Assembly (NCBI RefSeq): GCF_000716535.1
Contig: NZ_JNWV01000006.1
Coordinates: forward strand, 62,001 to 126,000
Direction: 5' to 3'
Length of the DNA: 64,000 nt
From: Streptomyces flaveolus
GTDB taxonomy: Bacteria > Actinomycetota > Actinomycetes > Streptomycetales > Streptomycetaceae
Position 1 is the first letter of the stretch. Each line of letters starts with the position of its first letter. The position numbers were made by a program, and so were the translations under genes. A model generated the notes under the pieces. That model worked only from the letters and a program-made list of their open reading frames with translations, was not told where the DNA came from and made no database searches. Below, one piece after another: positions 4,469-60,014 of the stretch.

Positions 4469-5017
4469 TCAGGCCGGGTCGACCTCGCGCAGCAGGCCGG
4501 TGCGCACGTCGAAGACGAAGCCGCGGACGTCGTCGTTGTGCAGCAGGAACGGCGAGGTGCGCACCCGCTGCATGGACTGGCGCACGTCCTGGTCCACGTC
4601 CCGGAAGGACTCCACCGCCCAGGACGGCCGCTGGCCGACCTCCATCTCCAGCTCGCTGCGGAAGTCCTCGGTGAGGGCCTCCAGGCCGCAGCCGGTGTGG
4701 TGGATGAGCACGATGCTGCGGGTGCCGAGCTTGCGCTGGCTGATGGTCAGCGACCGGATGACGTCGTCGGTGACCACACCGCCCGCGTTGCGGATCGTGT
4801 GGCAGTCGCCGAGCTGTAGACCGAGGGCCTTGTGCAGGTCGAGGCGCGCGTCCATGCACGCGACGACGGCGACGTTGAGAACGGGGCGGGCGTCCATGCC
4901 GGGGTCCGTGAACGCTTCGGCGTACCGCCGGTTGGCTTCCACGAGGCGGTCGGTCACGGTGTCGCCGGCCGTTATGGCGCCTTCGGATCCAGTGGGCACT
5001 GCTGCAGAAGTCGTCAT
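4469..5017 (-). CDS. Beta-class carbonic anhydrase
   Basis: 182 residues from ATG 5017. Reversible hydration of CO2 with a zinc ion. The zinc and active-site motifs of the beta class are present: ACMDARLD (Cys and the Asp-Arg dyad) and IHHTGCGLEAL (His and second Cys), with IRNAGGVVTDDVIRSL between. The short length and the sequence resemble the Rv1284 type of mycobacteria. The frame continues upstream to 5107 but the extra residues are not family-like; the ATG has no good ribosome site, so the exact start is uncertain. Transcribed away from rsmH. Its position next to the division cluster has no obvious functional meaning. Confidence 0.92.
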   Translation of the reverse strand: MTTSAAVPTGSEGAITAGDTVTDRLVEANRRYAEAFTDPGMDARPVLNVAVVACMDARLDLHKALGLQLGDCHTIRNAGGVVTDDVIRSLTISQRKLGTRSIVLIHHTGCGLEALTEDFRSELEMEVGQRPSWAVESFRDVDQDVRQSMQRVRTSPFLLHNDDVRGFVFDVRTGLLREVDPA

Positions 5018-26862: not shown

Positions 26863-27149
26863 CGGCGCCGCGCGGACAGCGGCGGACCGGTTTTCCGCGC
26901 GGCGGGGGCGCGGGCCGTACGACCGGGCCGTGTGACCCGAATGGCGAGGGGAGCGGGCGCCGGGGTCGGTGCGGTACCGGCCCGGCGGATTACCCGGCGG
27001 GGAGCTGGGCACAACGGATGCATGCCCGTGGCTCGGGGGGTGCGGGCGGGCGAATCGGGCGGTGTGCCCCGTTGCCGCGGGACTCAAGTCGATTTATCGT
27101 CCCAGCACGATTCGCGAGCAAGATCACAATATGTGAAGGGGCCGCGGCC

Positions 27150-28307
27150 ATGGTGGCGAAGAAGACCGCCGTACAGCAGCCGGCGACCGGGAAGACCGGC
27201 GCGAGGCCTGCCACCAAGAAGACGGCCCCGGGCAGGACGGCCGCCACGAAGACGGCTGCCAAGAAGCCGGTGGCCGAGAAGGCGGCGCCCGTCGAGGCGG
27301 CTGCCACGAAGACGGCTGCCACGAAGGCGGTGGCCCCCAAGGCGGCCGTCGGCGAGAAGTCGGCCGCTGCGGGGAAGGTCGCGAAGAAGGCGGCTGAGAA
27401 GGCTGAGAAGAAGGCGGCCGTGAAGAAGACGGCTGTGAACAAGACGGCCGACAGAACGGTCGCGAAGGAGGTCGCGGGTACCAAGGCGGTCACCGGGAAG
27501 CCGGCCGCGACGGAGACGGCTGTGAAGGACGCGACGGCCAGGAAGACGGCCGTGGCGGACAAAGCCGCGATGAGGAAGACGGCCACGAAGAGGTCGGCCG
27601 CCAGGCGGACGGCCGCGGCGGACAAGTCCGCGATGAAGGAGACGGCCGCCAAGGAAGCGGCCGAGAAGGAGACGGCCGCCGAAGAAGCGGTCGGCAAGAA
27701 GGCCGTCGCCGAGAAGACCGCCGCCAAGAAAGCCGCTGCCAAGAAGGCCGCGGTGAAGGAGACGGCCGACAAGAGCACGACCAAGGACGCGGGCGCGGCG
27801 CGGGCCGCGAAGCAGACGGGAGCCACGACAGTGGTTGCGAAGAAGACTCCTGGCACGGCCACGGCGGAACAGTCCGCCGTTCCCAAGGCGCGGCTCGGCG
27901 CGGTGGAGCCCGGCGAACTGGCGGTACGCCCCGGCGAGGATCCGTGGACCCCGGAAGAGGCCGACGCGGCCCGCGCGGAGCTGCAGTCCGAGCTGGAGCG
28001 GCTGCGGGAGGAGATCAGCTCGTCCGAGGCGTCCCTGGTCGGCCTGATGCGGGACTCCGGGGACGGTGCCGGGGACGATCAGGCCGACACCGGCACCAAG
28101 AACATCACGCGCGAGCACGAGCTGGCGCTGGCCGCCAACGCGCGCGAGATGCTGATCCAGACCGAGCGCGCCCTGGAACGGCTCGACGCGGGCACCTACG
28201 GCCTGTGCGAGAACTGCGGCGACCCCATCGGCAAGGCCCGGATGCAGGCGTTCCCGAGGGCCACGCTGTGCGTGGAGTGCAAGCAGAAGCAGGAACGCCG
28301 CTCCTGA
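27150..28307 (+). CDS. DksA/TraR-type zinc-finger protein with long Lys/Ala-rich histone H1-like N-terminus
   Basis: 385 residues from ATG 27150, with AAGGGG upstream. Residues 1 to ~240 are almost only Lys, Ala, Thr, Val and Glu in loose repeats such as KKTAAKK, like the tails of histone H1 and bacterial HupS-type proteins. From ~245 the protein becomes DksA/TraR-like: a coiled coil (EADAARAELQSELERLREEI) and a C4 zinc finger with CENCGDPIGKARM and LCVECKQKQE (~353-377). DksA-type proteins act on RNA polymerase through its secondary channel. A DNA- or RNA-binding tail joined to that module suggests a nucleoid-associated transcription factor, which is inference. Adjacent to lspA. Confidence 0.9.
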   Translation: MVAKKTAVQQPATGKTGARPATKKTAPGRTAATKTAAKKPVAEKAAPVEAAATKTAATKAVAPKAAVGEKSAAAGKVAKKAAEKAEKKAAVKKTAVNKTADRTVAKEVAGTKAVTGKPAATETAVKDATARKTAVADKAAMRKTATKRSAARRTAAADKSAMKETAAKEAAEKETAAEEAVGKKAVAEKTAAKKAAAKKAAVKETADKSTTKDAGAARAAKQTGATTVVAKKTPGTATAEQSAVPKARLGAVEPGELAVRPGEDPWTPEEADAARAELQSELERLREEISSSEASLVGLMRDSGDGAGDDQADTGTKNITREHELALAANAREMLIQTERALERLDAGTYGLCENCGDPIGKARMQAFPRATLCVECKQKQERRS

Positions 28308-47775: not shown

Positions 47776-47840
47776 CGGACGCCGTGGAGTGAGCGCGGTG
47801 GCGGGCGAGCCGTCGCCGCCGGGCGGGCCGGCGGGCAGCG

Positions 47841-47914
47841 TCAGCCGCGTCCGATCGGCGCCAGCACCGCCTCCGTCAGCCGCGTCCGATCGGCGCCAGC
47901 ACCGCCTCCGTCAG
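47841..47914. repeat. Perfect 35-base tandem duplication at the 3' end of the YbaK gene
   Basis: 47841-47875 is repeated exactly at 47876-47910, followed by four bases of a third copy. The copy at 47876-47910 encodes the C-terminus and stop of the YbaK-like gene on the minus strand; the other lies just beyond the stop. Confidence 0.97.
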
Positions 47915-50358: not shown

Positions 50359-50508
50359 TTCCGTCAGCTCTGACGGATGCCGTCGGGCCCGCCGCGTTCC
50401 GTCGGCCCCCCGATCCGCCGGCTCCACGGATCCGTCGGTCTCCCGCCTTCGTCGGCTCCACGGCTCCGTCGGCCTCCCGCATCCGTCGGCCTCCCGGCTT
50501 CCGTCAGC
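50359..50508. repeat. Degenerate 17-base tandem repeat array
   Basis: About eight units with the core TCCGTCGGCCTCCCGCA, for instance at 50448-50500, most 17 bases long and the first two 19. The array reaches into the stop codon of the pentapeptide-like gene (TCA at 50504-50506). It fills most of the gap 50304-50503, which has no other feature. Confidence 0.85.
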
Positions 50509-52081
50509 CCCGCCGCAGCAGCCGGGTCGCGCCCGCCGCCACCGTCGTCGCCAGGACCCAGCCGATCAGGATCAGCGCCGCCGCCAGCCACTGCCAGCCG
50601 CCGCGCAGCTGCCACTGGCCGGCCTGGCCCAGGTCGATCACCGGCAGCAGCAGGTCCAGCGTGAACAGCGCCGGGCTCCAGACCGGATGGCCGCCGGAAC
50701 TGACCGGCGGATGGTCCGCGCGCGCGAAGGCGAGCGTGCCCGCCGCCCACAGCACCGCCATCCACACCGCGGCCCGGCCCGGGCGGTAGCCGTAGGCGAC
50801 CGTCCAGTCCTGGAGGTAACCCCAGGACTTCCCGGCCAGCGGCAGCGTCTCACGCCGCCGGCGCTGCTTGGCGAGCAGCACCTCGCGCGCGTCCTCGTCC
50901 TCGCCGGCCGCCCGCAGCACCGCCGCCAGCCGCTCGTACGGCTCCGGGGCGTACTCGGCGGTGGCCGCCGCCACCCAGTCCAGACGCTGGGTCAGCGGGA
51001 AGGGGCCCTGCGGCACCAGGCTCTCGTAGGCGAACCCGCCCATGTGCAGATTGCCCGCGTCCGGCCAGCTGCTCGCCCGGTCCACCAGGTTCACCACCCG
51101 CGCGCCGGACAGCACCACCTTGCCGCGCTCCGGCTTGTCCCCGAGGAAGCGCAGCTCAGGCGTCTGCACCCGGCGCAGCGACAGCTCCTGGTCGTCGGTG
51201 AAGGCGAACCGGGCCCGCTCCAGGTCGACGGCGTCCCCGAACCGCCCGTCGTCCAGACGCACCCCGCCCCGGGACTCGAACCGCTGGATGCGTGTCCCGC
51301 GCGCGGGTGTCGTGCCGCTCAGCAGCGGGTTGCCCACGCCGGCCGGGGTCAGGTACAGGGTGCGCTCGACCGTGAGCTGCGGGGCGTTCAGGGCGAAACG
51401 GGCGTAGGGGTTGGCGAGCTTGGCGCCGCGCAGGCTGAGCGAGACGCCGATCTGGGCACCGCGCAGGCTGAACTCGCCGTGCGACTCCAGCATCTCCGCC
51501 TGGAGGTCCTGGCCGACGGTCAGGCCGTCGGCCGCGATGGACCGGCCGCCGCGGTCCCGGTACGCGACCGCCTGGTTGAGCAGCAGATCGGTGCCGATGT
51601 GCGCGTCCGTCAGCCGGACCCCGTTCTGGAAGCGGCAGCGCGGCAGATGCAGATCGCCCTCCGTGTGCACGCGGGCGGCCTCCAGGCGCGGCACCGCGCA
51701 GTCCACCAGGCGCAGGGTCGTGAACCGGGCCTCCGGCAGCCGCACCTCCTCGTCGAAGCGGCAGCCGCGCAGCTCGACGTACGGCGTGACCTGGCCGCCC
51801 GCCAGGTCCAGCGGATCGGTGATCCGCACGCCGACGAGCTTCAGCGCGGACACCCGGCCGGCGAGTGCCGGCGGGCCGTCGAGGAGCAGCCAGCAGACGA
51901 TGCGGGCCCGGACGGTCCGCTCGGGACCCCAGGGGTGCCCGCCGTGCGGATCGTCCACCGCGAAGTCGCCGCTGCTCAGGTCGTACACGCTGCCGTTGCG
52001 GAAGGCCTGCCACATGCCCGCCTCGGTCGCGGTCAGGTCGTCCGGCAGGTCCCCCGTGCGGATGCCGGCACCCTCGCTCAC
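50504..52081 (-). CDS. Pentapeptide-like beta-helix protein with C-terminal membrane segments
   Basis: 525 residues from GTG 52081, with GAGGAG five bases upstream. Residues ~65-330 show imperfect stacks of the A(D/N)LxG kind, such as [19 protein letters not shown] and [17 protein letters not shown], which predict a right-handed beta helix. The C-terminal part has [21 protein letters not shown] and then two or three hydrophobic segments ([51 protein letters not shown]). Older annotations of such proteins as oxidoreductases have no visible basis here. Transcribed divergently from hisD across the dyad-repeat array at 52186-52276. Confidence 0.85.
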
Positions 52082-52185
52082 CGTTCTCCTCTTCCGGTTC
52101 GCTGGTTTTCGTACAGCCGTTCATGCCCTGTGTGACCGCCCGGACACCACCCGTGAAGGTGATCTTCCGGGTTCCGGCCACCCTC

Positions 52186-52276
52186 TGTACCAGCCATTGG
52201 CGCACGTATGTACCAGCCATTGGCCCACATCTGTACCAGTCATTGGTCCATGTTCTGTATCAGCCATTGATACGCG
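52186..52276. promoter_or_regulatory. Four tandem dyad repeats (operator-like array) between the pentapeptide-like gene and hisD
   Basis: Units begin at 52186, 52209, 52232 and 52256 (spacing 23, 23, 24) with the core TGTACCAGCCATTGG. Each holds a dyad of the form GTACCA-N5-TGG; the fourth is perfect, GTATCA 52257-52262 and TGATAC 52268-52273. Dyad centres are 52195, 52218, 52241 and 52265. The array ends about 26 bases before the hisD -10 element. It looks like a set of binding sites for one regulator (inference). Confidence 0.8.
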
Positions 52277-52301
52277 CGGACGGCTCCCGACGGCGGTCTG
52301 A

Positions 52302-52317
52302 GAGAATTGGGACTGTG
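52302..52317 (+). promoter_or_regulatory. Candidate leaderless promoter of the his operon
   Basis: GAGAAT at 52302-52307 lies seven bases before the hisD GTG 52315. No ribosome site precedes the GTG. The -35 would fall near 52279-52284, just after the last dyad of the repeat array. Confidence 0.5.
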
Positions 52318-53640
52318 ATTTCCCGAATCGATCTGCGCGGCGACGCCCTTCCCGAGGGCCCCGCCCTGCGCGACCTGCTGCCCCGAGCCGACTTCGACGT
52401 TCAGGCCGCCCTGGAGAAGGTGCGCCCGATCTGCGAGGCCGTGCATCATCGTGGCGACGCGGCGCTGATCGACTTCGCCGAGAAGTTCGACGGAGTACGG
52501 CTGGAAACCGTCCGTGTCCCTGCCCAGGCGCTCGCCGACGCGCTCGCCGGCCTCGACCCGGCCGTGCGCGCCGCCCTGGAGGAGTCCATCCGCCGCGCCC
52601 GGCTGGTCCACCGCGAGCAGCGCCGTACGACCCACACCACGCAGGTCGTGCCCGGCGGCTCGGTGACCGAGAAGTGGGTTCCGGTCGAGCGTGTCGGGCT
52701 GTACGCGCCCGGCGGCCGCTCGGTCTACCCGTCCTCCGTGGTGATGAACGTGGTGCCCGCCCAGGAGGCCGGCGTCGAGTCCATCGCACTCGCCTCACCG
52801 GCCCAGGCCGAGTTCGGCGGGCTGCCGCACCCGACGATCCTCGCCGCCTGCGCCCTGCTCGGCGTGGACGAGGTGTACGCGGCCGGCGGCGCCACCGCCG
52901 TCGCGATGTTCGCGTACGGCACGGAGTCCTGCCCGCCCGCCAACATGGTCACCGGGCCCGGCAACATCTGGGTCGCCGCCGCCAAGCGCTACTTCACCGG
53001 CAAGATCGGCATCGACGCCGAGGCCGGTCCGACCGAGATCGCGATCCTCGCGGACGCCGGCGCCGACCCGGTTCACGTCGCCTCCGACCTGATCAGCCAG
53101 GCCGAGCACGACCCGCTGGCGGCGGCCGTGCTGGTCACCGACTCCGTCGAGCTGGCGGACGCGGTCGAGAAGGAGCTGGAGCCGCAGGTCGCGGCCACCA
53201 AGCACGTCGAGGACCGGATCGTGCCCGCGCTGAAGGGCAAGCAGTCCGCCATCGTGCTGGTCGACGGCATCGACGAGGGCCTGCGGGTCGTCGACGCGTA
53301 CGGCGCCGAGCACCTGGAGATCCAGACCGCCGACGCCGCGGCGGTGGCCGACCGGGTCCGCAACGCCGGCGCGATCTTCATCGGCCCCTGGGCCCCCGTC
53401 TCGCTCGGCGACTACGCGGCGGGGTCCAACCACGTGCTGCCCACCGGCGGCTGCGCCTGCCACTCCTCGGGCCTGTCCGTCCAGTCCTTCCTCCGGGGCA
53501 TCCACATCGTGGACTACACGAGGGACGCGCTCGCCGAGGTCGCCCACCACGTGGTGACACTGGCGGAGGCCGAGGACCTGCCGGCGCACGGCGCGGCCGT
53601 CAAGGCCAGGTTCGGCTGGAAGGTACCCGAGAGCAAGTGA
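52315..53640 (+). CDS. hisD: Histidinol dehydrogenase HisD
   Basis: 441 residues from GTG 52315. NAD-dependent two-step oxidation of L-histidinol to L-histidine, zinc enzyme. Family motifs are [55 protein letters not shown] and [15 protein letters not shown]. First gene of the operon; its stop overlaps the hisC start (GTGA). Confidence 0.97.
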
Positions 53641-58112: not shown

Positions 58113-58158
58113 ATATTGCGCAAAGCATATTGCGCAGTTTCTCTTTCCCATCTAGGTT
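58113..58158 (+). promoter_or_regulatory. Promoter and operator of the ArsR/MFS pair
   Basis: TTGCGC 58130-58135, a 17-base spacer and TAGGTT 58153-58158 form a promoter; ATG 58166 follows after seven bases. TGCGCAA 58117-58123 and TTGCGCA 58130-58136 make a perfect inverted repeat across the -35, and ATATTGCGCA is also directly repeated (58113-58122, 58127-58136). Typical of an autoregulated ArsR operator. Confidence 0.8.
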
Positions 58159-58165
58159 CACTGTC

Positions 58166-58753
58166 ATGGCACGCGAGGAGAACCGCCGGATCACGGACAT
58201 CGGGACGCTCAAGGCGCTCGCCCATCCCCTGCGGATGAAGCTCTACCGGCTGCTGTTCGTCGCGGAGGTCGCCACCGCCTCACAGCTCGCCGAACAGGTG
58301 GACGAGGCCGTCTCCCTCGTCAGCTACCACCTGCGCAAGCTGGCCGAACACGGTCTCGTCGAGGAGGCCCAGCCGCGCAGCGCGGACGGGCGGGAGCGCT
58401 GGTGGCAGCCGGCGTCCGACGGCGTCACCATCCGCGACGAGGACTTCCGGGACGCCCCCGAGAAGGCGGCGGCGCACCTGGCGGCCTCGCGGATGTTCCT
58501 GGAGCAGCGCGCCGAGATGCACCGGAGGTACCTCGACGAACGCGCCCACTGGGGGCCGGAGTGGAACACGGCGGCCCACGACTCGGAGTCCCTGCTCCGG
58601 CTCACCGCCGGTGAACTCGCCGCGCTGAAGAAGGACCTGACCGACCTGCTCAAGCGGTACGACGAGCAGGGGCGGGCCCGTGAGGTCGCCGGCGACACCC
58701 AGGGGCGCGAGCACGTCGCGCTGCACGTGTACGGCTTCCCGTTCCGCGTCTGA
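58166..58753 (+). CDS. ArsR-family transcriptional regulator
   Basis: 195 residues from ATG 58166. Winged helix near the N-terminus: IGTLKALAHPLRMKLYRLL, then TASQLAEQVDEAVSLVSYHLRKL (recognition helix) and the wing LVEEAQPRSADGRERWW. The C-terminal ~100 residues are helical and lack the metal-binding ELCVC motif of metal sensors, so a non-metal signal is likely. Probably represses itself and the adjacent MFS gene through the dyad at 58117-58136. Confidence 0.9.
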   Translation: MAREENRRITDIGTLKALAHPLRMKLYRLLFVAEVATASQLAEQVDEAVSLVSYHLRKLAEHGLVEEAQPRSADGRERWWQPASDGVTIRDEDFRDAPEKAAAHLAASRMFLEQRAEMHRRYLDERAHWGPEWNTAAHDSESLLRLTAGELAALKKDLTDLLKRYDEQGRAREVAGDTQGREHVALHVYGFPFRV

Positions 58754-58775
58754 CGTCTGAGAGGACGGCCCTTAC

Positions 58776-60014
58776 GTGACCGCCACGCTCGTACCGCCGG
58801 CCACCGCGCAGGCCCACCGCGACTCCAATGTGCTGCGCTGGCTCGGCGCCTACACCTCCTCGATGCTCGGCGACAGCGTCTACTACCTCGCCCTGTCCTG
58901 GGCCGCCGTCCAGGCCGGGAGCCCCACGCAGGCCGGGCTCGTGATGTCGGCCAGCGCACTGCCCAGGGCCGTGCTGATGCTCGGCGGGGGAGTGGTCGCC
59001 GACCGGTTCGGGCCGCGCCGGGTCGTCCTCGGCAGTGACGCCGTACGCTGTGCCGCCGCCCTCGCCGTGGCCGCCCTGCTGTTCCTCACCAGCCCCGGGC
59101 TGTGGCCGCTCGCCGTGCTGGCGCTGGTCTTCGGCACCGTCGACGCGGTGTTCATGCCCGCCGTGGGCGCCCTGCCGGCCCGCCTCACCGAGAAGGGCCA
59201 GCTCGCCCGGGTCCAGGGCATGCGCGGGCTCGCCATCCGCTTCGCGAGCGTCGTGGGCGCCCCGCTCGGCGGACTCGCCGTGGCCCTCGGCGGCGCCCCG
59301 GCCGCGTTCGCCCTCGCCGGGCTCCTCATCGCCGTATCGCTCCCCCTCCTGATGTCGGTGCGGGTGCGGGCGCTGCCGCAGGACGGCACGCCCGGTACGG
59401 CGGGCACCGCTTGGAGCGACCTGAGGGCCGGGCTGCGCTACATCCGGCGGCATCGGGTGCTCGCGCCGCTGATGGTCGCCATCACCCTCGGTGACCTCGG
59501 TTTCGTCGGGCCGTTGAACGTCGGGCTGACCCTGCTCGCCGACCGGCGCGGCTGGGGTGCCGCGGGCATGGGCTGGGTGCTCGCCGGGTTCGGGGCCGGC
59601 GCGGCAGCCGCCTCGTTGCTGCTGACCGTCCGGGGCCGGCTGCCGCGCGCCGGGCTGGTCGCCGGGTACGCCATCATCGCGGGCTGCGTGGCCATCGGCG
59701 CCCTCGCCTACGTGCCGGGCCTCGTCACCGCCGTCGCCACGGCCGTGCTCGTCGGCCTGCTCACCGGGCTCAGCGGCGCGATGTGCGGCGCCCTGCTCCA
59801 GACCCAGGCCGATCCGGCCTACCTCGGCCGGGTCACCTCCGTCTCCAGCCTGGTCAGCCTCGGCCTCACCCCGCTGAGCATGCCGTTCGCCGCCGCCGCG
59901 ATCGGCACCTGGGGCCCCGGCCCGGTGTTCGTCGCCAGCGCGGTGGTCTGCGGGCTCGGCGGTGCCGTCGCCCTCGCCGTACCGGCCCTGCGCCGCGCCG
60001 AACTCCCGGGCTGA
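58776..60014 (+). CDS. MFS transporter
   Basis: 412 residues from GTG 58776, 22 bases after the ArsR gene. Twelve predicted membrane segments; the MFS loop motif between helices 2 and 3 is GGGVVADRFGPRRVVLGSDAV. Resembles efflux members of the enterobactin-exporter-like group. With a dedicated ArsR regulator it is best read as an inducible exporter of an unknown compound. Converges on the VOC gene with only seven bases between. Confidence 0.9.
   Translation: MTATLVPPATAQAHRDSNVLRWLGAYTSSMLGDSVYYLALSWAAVQAGSPTQAGLVMSASALPRAVLMLGGGVVADRFGPRRVVLGSDAVRCAAALAVAALLFLTSPGLWPLAVLALVFGTVDAVFMPAVGALPARLTEKGQLARVQGMRGLAIRFASVVGAPLGGLAVALGGAPAAFALAGLLIAVSLPLLMSVRVRALPQDGTPGTAGTAWSDLRAGLRYIRRHRVLAPLMVAITLGDLGFVGPLNVGLTLLADRRGWGAAGMGWVLAGFGAGAAAASLLLTVRGRLPRAGLVAGYAIIAGCVAIGALAYVPGLVTAVATAVLVGLLTGLSGAMCGALLQTQADPAYLGRVTSVSSLVSLGLTPLSMPFAAAAIGTWGPGPVFVASAVVCGLGGAVALAVPALRRAELPG

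Follow-up and report, generated by a model that had tools for sequence, protein, structure and literature searches.

A nearly genus-wide dyad upstream of Streptomyces hisD as the probable operator of a putative dedicated regulator, with auxiliary copies in the Streptomyces flaveolus lineage

Introduction

The described systems closest to the site reported here come from protease control and amino-acid control. ClgR and its Streptomyces paralogue PopR are transcriptional activators (PMC9765437), and a clpC1 promoter oligonucleotide carrying the ClgR site has been printed (PMC2905415); the operator is of the type GTTCGC-N5-GCGAAC. NdgR, of the IclR family, has an imperfect palindrome upstream of Streptomyces amino-acid biosynthesis genes, a 15-bp motif of the GTCCAC...GGAC type, and the main text of the paper that describes it makes no mention of histidine or hisD (PMC4340878). 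For the histidine genes themselves, one paper concerns the neighborhood named hisD-SCO2055 in S. coelicolor, where the arginine regulator ArgR shifts the intergenic probe in vitro and where the prediction of ARG boxes gives two with low scores (5.7 and 4.4); of its four expression comparisons, a single one has a value for hisD (2.0), the remaining three being not significant (PMC3293853). A T-box-like leader has been proposed for hisD of Corynebacterium glutamicum (PMC3896937). In the open-access literature searched, no published binding to the hisD upstream region was found besides that of ArgR in vitro, and no described operator or dedicated his regulator for Streptomyces; a first-pass annotation of the present locus had likewise named no described operator of this form.

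That annotation, made from the letters of a 64,000-nt stretch of the S. flaveolus genome (hereafter the window), had pointed to a set of repeated dyads in front of the his operon. Here we follow up this observation by comparison across the genus, and ask which of the copies looks like an operator, for which gene, and for what kind of protein.

Results

Four dyad units precede hisD, and only the proximal one is a perfect palindrome. Two repeat finders delimit four tandem units of 23-24 nt each at 52186-52276, with unit starts at 52187, 52210, 52233 and 52257 and hence steps of 23, 23 and 24 nt. The last unit, which we call O1 (52257..52273, plus strand), is the full palindrome GTATCA-GCCAT-TGATAC; the other three, O2 (52233..52249, plus strand; GTACCA-GTCAT-TGGTCC), O3 (52210..52226, plus strand; GTACCA-GCCAT-TGGCCC) and O4 (52187..52203, plus strand; GTACCA-GCCAT-TGGCGC), retain GTACCA and TGG. 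The pattern GTAYCA-N5-TGR has five matches in the window, every one of them within the array (the palindromic copy giving two, one per strand), whereas 100 shuffles gave 0.42 matches on average and 3 at most. Across the 10.3-Mb genome, the core TGTAYCAGYCATTGR is found without mismatch in the array only and with one mismatch at two further places, and GTATCA-N5-TGATAC occurs a single time, its control pattern not at all. The four copies and the perfect last dyad of the first-pass annotation are thus present, and the centers it gave (52195, 52218, 52241 and 52265) are exact. The spacing it gave, about two helical turns, does not hold up: 23-24 bp corresponds to 2.2-2.3 turns at 10.5 bp per turn, or roughly 70-100 degrees of rotation per center, so that the sites wind round the helix and are not phased on one face. 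Steps of 23, 23 and 24 bp lie away from any multiple of 10.5 bp, start-to-start distances in relatives differ (18, 24, 25, 26 and 28 nt), and no helically phased cooperative array is found. What survives of the proposed layout for a dimeric regulator is a dimer-type operator for hisD at O1, as far as sequence can tell; the phased array does not.

Other repeats of the window include a perfect 35-bp direct repeat (47839-47914; 2.2 copies) that runs into the 3′ end of a minus-strand gene, and a minus-strand gene lying over long tandem repeats with lysine/alanine-type codons (26990-27886), which we presume may encode a histone-like tail.

Comparison of hisD upstream regions across streptomycetes separates O1 from the rest of the array, since it is the proximal dyad alone that is widely kept, and at fixed spacing, the upstream copies being lineage-specific. 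Of the 121 Streptomyces genomes sampled, 94 have the perfect palindrome and one has the reversed control pattern; the palindrome occurs once per genome in these 94 except in G012 and G022, where it occurs twice. By sequence, hisD lies directly downstream in 79 of the 94; the other 15 consist of 14 genomes left out of this count and of G008, which was missed by the start pattern yet aligns to the hisD region. The search for hisD in the 27 genomes that lack a perfect copy succeeded in all (as a fragment only in G001) but G094. Their promoters could be read in 25 cases, and in 19 of these an equally spaced version retains 9-11 of the 12 arm positions (18 found by scan, and G128 by reading of the printed sequence); 10-11 arm positions are kept in 16 of the 27. 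The six remaining readable promoters are free of the dyad (G062, G065, G120; G052, G135, G136); these genomes form two promoter-similarity groups, and their hisD products are 74-77% identical to that of the window. Relatives without any copy, which the first-pass annotation had named as the sign of a neutral duplication, are thus the exception, nearly all sampled Streptomyces keeping the proximal dyad. In G075, the site GTACCAGTGAGTGGTAC has both arms altered symmetrically (GTACCA...TGGTAC), a compensated change. The O1 spacer is also fairly conserved, reading GCCAN in 165 of 190 promoters of a set that was itself selected in part by GCCAN, but in the imperfect O1 sites, in G075 and in the auxiliary site discussed below, dyad symmetry is kept and the arms stand above the spacer in conservation. 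Scanning named genomes for GTATCAGCCANTGATAC gave at least 119 loci, at least 92 of them Streptomyces-titled. Among the matches listed, all 92 Streptomyces-titled loci lie directly upstream of hisD, S. violaceoruber included, as does one unclassified actinobacterial record; 26 others are not at hisD. Taken together, the comparative evidence gives good support to O1 as an operator serving hisD.

O1 also stands at a fixed distance from the predicted hisD promoter. From the palindrome to a conserved element, GTCTGNGAGAAT, the distance is 22 nt in 178 of 190 unique promoters and 21 nt in the other 12; all 190 were preselected for a perfect palindrome near hisD (and some also for a GCCAN spacer) and therefore gauge spacing, not presence. 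Of the 178, 176 were placed at 22 nt automatically and two, L079 and L340, on reading, the automatic matches there being spurious. The element has TG one base 5′ of GAGAAT, stands 6-7 nt from the GTG codon in both main spacing classes (99 and 73 of the 190 promoters), and is highly conserved in both. Its counterpart in the window, GTCTGAGAGAATTG (52296..52309, plus strand), would act as an extended -10 region, with TGn at 52299-52301 and the hexamer GAGAAT at 52302-52307, 7 nt from the GTG start of hisD (52315..53640, plus strand; histidinol dehydrogenase, Pfam PF00815, E 1.6e-148). A -10-like element this close to the start codon suggests that the hisD message is leaderless. At the -35 position, the column profile of the promoters has a conserved CGNNCGG (52277..52283, plus strand in the window) and no TTGAC-like hexamer. 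A sigma-70 promoter search found none, which says little since only 0.1 would be expected by chance. The center of O1 falls at about -50 relative to the predicted transcription start and the site adjoins the -35 position, so the annotation's remark that the array ends right before this position is borne out, with the operator directly upstream of it.

On the other side of the intergenic region lies a divergent gene with weak pentapeptide-repeat similarity (50504..52081, minus strand; Pentapeptide_3, E 7.4e-5, under the curated cut-off), which occupies the position of SCO2055 in S. coelicolor. Degenerate tandem repeats of 17, 34 and 51 bp cover its 3′ end and run past it (50380-50517). Facing it is a block of the GTGAC...GAACRC type (52120..52159, no strand assigned), conserved in relatives and degenerate in the window, and the distance from O1 to this block ranges from 3 to 161 nt, as seen in 165 of 189 promoters where the block was recognized.

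The dyad appears, from these scans, to be a single-target site. With one mismatch allowed, 39 genomes gave 73 forward sites, of which 33 are away from hisD (that is, 73 less one assumed hisD site per genome and less the second hisD copy in G104), against 46 for the control. The S. flaveolus genome has 25 sites with two mismatches, hisD included, against 22 for the control, and no convincing target was seen at the 14 of 24 places that were inspected; at one place, L053, GTACCA-N5-TGGTAC falls within a gene. Neither the 39-genome scan nor these 14 places yielded a second conserved target pointing to an autoregulated regulator, and no candidate autoregulatory copy of the dyad for the regulator itself was found. 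Neither G012 nor G022 has its second perfect site at his genes; G237 also has a second perfect site. Two recurrent one-mismatch sites were judged unrelated, one before an aldehyde dehydrogenase-like gene, where it overlaps another palindrome, AACTGGTATCAGTT, and one ahead of a gene of the zinc alcohol dehydrogenase type. A dyad of the form GTCTCAG-N3-CTGATAC stands immediately in front of a zinc alcohol dehydrogenase-like gene in four Streptomyces genomes (L198, L201, L204 and L205, near 5001-5017).

Beyond Streptomyces, 9 of 312 genomes of the class sample contain the perfect dyad, occurrences that we take as chance. In the order sample, one genus has it in 5 of the 10 genomes sampled, between TetR-type and hydrolase-like genes; we assume the genus to be Catenulispora, and the gene names are likewise our own reading. 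The loci (L155-L159, center 1501-1517) have the dyad arms between TetR-type and alpha/beta-hydrolase-like genes, with further GTATCATGAC alongside. This TetR-type operator, GTATCATGTCGTGATAC, is like O1 in its arms and spacer length, but it does not stand at his genes and was found in half of the sampled genomes of its genus, and it probably belongs to another regulator with a coincident arm sequence.

The upstream copies have a quite different distribution from O1. Auxiliary copies of the window type were found at hisD in at least 15 records: three copies in the S. flaveolus window, two in G126, and one each in G016, G003, G099, G159, G224, G217, G775, G743, G605, G777 and S. griseofuscus, with damaged copies in G048 and G117 and arm changes in both copies of G126. 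In ten single-copy genomes (G224, with intact arms, as well as G126 and the window being excluded from this column count), none of the nine arm columns (GTACCA, TGG) varies, against four of the five spacer columns. That all four variable columns among the 14 of arms and spacer should fall in the spacer has a chance probability of 5/1001, a figure that is less extreme given the shared ancestry of these relatives. Invariance extends to four of the six columns that follow TGG, and adding G126 makes two arm columns variable; among the ten genomes, the flank upstream has a mean pairwise difference of 0.114 and the stretch downstream of the operator one of 0.18. With their arms invariant in ten relatives and the spacer free to change, the auxiliary copies look selected, and the three upstream copies look like a trait of one small lineage. 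Hence, of the whole array as operator, only the conserved proximal copy stands, the tandem part being a lineage-specific addition.

Additions of this kind were gained separately elsewhere. The S. parvus/S. fimicarius group has copies at 26-28 nt (too alike for a comparison of arm conservation), G104 at 18 nt and L342 at 25 nt; half-site repeats are present in G002, G020 and G063, and an extra dyad with at least 9 of 12 matches within 150 nt upstream is found in 18 of 188 promoters, against 2 in one shuffle of each. On a hisD tree (196 sequences, FastTree), the window-type label takes five changes, so that its gains and losses are not separable there, and the S. parvus/S. fimicarius type takes two; a single branch sets the rows of the latter off from those of the window type. 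A two-mismatch scan for the auxiliary site matched at least 160 of 392 Streptomyces genomes, with the control similar and coding matches dominant, and 5 of the 11 places inspected were at hisD. Upstream of hisD in L092, L023 and L025, GTATCA recurs every 11-12 nt ahead of a full operator; these half-site tandems are another form of operator growth.

Discussion

The alternatives range from a neutral origin of the upstream copies to the assignment of the whole site to another protein, gene or molecule. That O2-O4 are a neutral tandem duplication, with function in O1 alone, would fit their confinement to a small lineage with one to three copies, right arms that differ from those of O1, the decay in G048 and G117 and the changes in G126. 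We nonetheless hold it to be rather unlikely, given GTACCA and TGG arms that are constant over ten genomes beside a variable spacer, and given that extra copies or half-sites recur in the S. parvus/S. fimicarius group, G104, L342, G063, G002 and G020. For the protein that binds the dyad, ArgR is the one named candidate with published data at this intergenic region: the shift in vitro, the two predicted boxes and the single hisD value of 2.0 in four comparisons (PMC3293853). A matrix built from argC boxes only (34 boxes, 17 genomes, training minimum 13.8) nevertheless scores the operator at a mean of -6.9 and a maximum of 0.9, does no better on hisD regions than on shuffles on average (-1.04 versus -0.25), and the dyad is absent from all 17 argC upstream stretches. 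Moreover, ARG boxes occur at several arg genes, whereas the O1-type site was found conserved at hisD only. Thus ArgR, if it acts at hisD, probably uses other bases, and that it is the protein binding the dyad is quite improbable. NdgR was also considered, and its motif does not match the dyad. The divergent pentapeptide-like gene, which the first-pass annotation had named as an equally possible beneficiary of the array, does share the intergenic region with hisD; its control from this site is very unlikely because the distance on the divergent side is not conserved, against a fixed distance on the hisD side.

A reading in which the dyad works as RNA, as a transcribed hairpin or riboswitch of the attenuator or T-box kind and not as a DNA site, could call on the 6-bp stem into which the dyad can fold and on the leader proposed in C. 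glutamicum (PMC3896937), but a promoter-like element is conserved between the dyad and the start codon. At gathering score, Rfam gives no match in the window, its one hit being at chance level (E 0.36) and inside hisD, and no terminator-like site was found. With no sign of a transcribed leader bearing a T-box or terminator at this locus, a T-box or histidine attenuator is highly improbable. The remaining proposal, that the site is bound by the ArsR/HTH_20-type protein encoded 3′ of hisF (58130..58753, plus strand) and that this protein is autoregulated via the operon, has in its favor a DNA-binding protein encoded beside the his genes. The gene lies, together with an MFS transporter gene, between hisF and hisI (58130-60014). 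Matches to the protein with E below 1e-45 occur in only 52 of 121 genomes, some of them perhaps away from his genes, and matches are weak at best in the rest, which include many genomes with a perfect site (for example G005, G006, G009, G011, G012 and G022); an MFS efflux-type gene directly follows it. Presence and absence across the 121 genomes largely refute it as the cognate regulator, and of the readings considered here we give it the least credence.

We return to the reading that O1 is the operator of the hisD promoter for a dedicated, putative dimeric regulator, the upstream copies being kept as weaker auxiliaries, which we consider likely on comparative grounds. A putative homodimeric helix-turn-helix protein would bind GTATCA-N5-TGATAC, with C/G accepted at the fourth position of the arms, and one site per genome would be its high-affinity target. 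It would sit immediately 5′ of the -35 position, in a promoter predicted to be leaderless, with an extended -10 and no consensus -35. Because the spacing is rigid and the -35 is missing, features that suggest contact with RNA polymerase, activation is somewhat more likely than simple blocking. In the S. flaveolus lineage, a copy of the site may have arisen 24 bp upstream and been retained as a weaker auxiliary (GTACCA-N5-TGG), then amplified to three in S. flaveolus itself, where the three auxiliaries might raise the local regulator concentration or permit side-by-side loading.

As an operator, O1 would be new but of a known sort: exact, nearly genus-wide and apparently single-target. In geometry it is identical to the ClgR-type operator, 17 bp with 6-bp arms, a 5-bp spacer and GT...AC ends, and it differs in the inner arm bases and in serving a single hisD target instead of protease genes. 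We regard the likeness as a lead on the protein family and not as an identification. Like the NdgR site, O1 is a palindrome upstream of an amino-acid biosynthesis gene, and unlike it in length and sequence.

For Streptomyces, the broader picture would be of histidine biosynthesis under a dedicated regulator, not described so far, with a single nearly genus-wide operator in each genome as its entire high-affinity regulon, and of some lineages that repeatedly tuned this control with weaker auxiliary copies, up to three in the present case; we give this picture about an even chance. A dyad that is nearly genus-wide, single-copy and exactly placed makes the gap in Streptomyces histidine regulation experimentally tractable, and relatives with zero, one, two and three auxiliary copies offer a natural experiment on the gain and retention of operator arrays.
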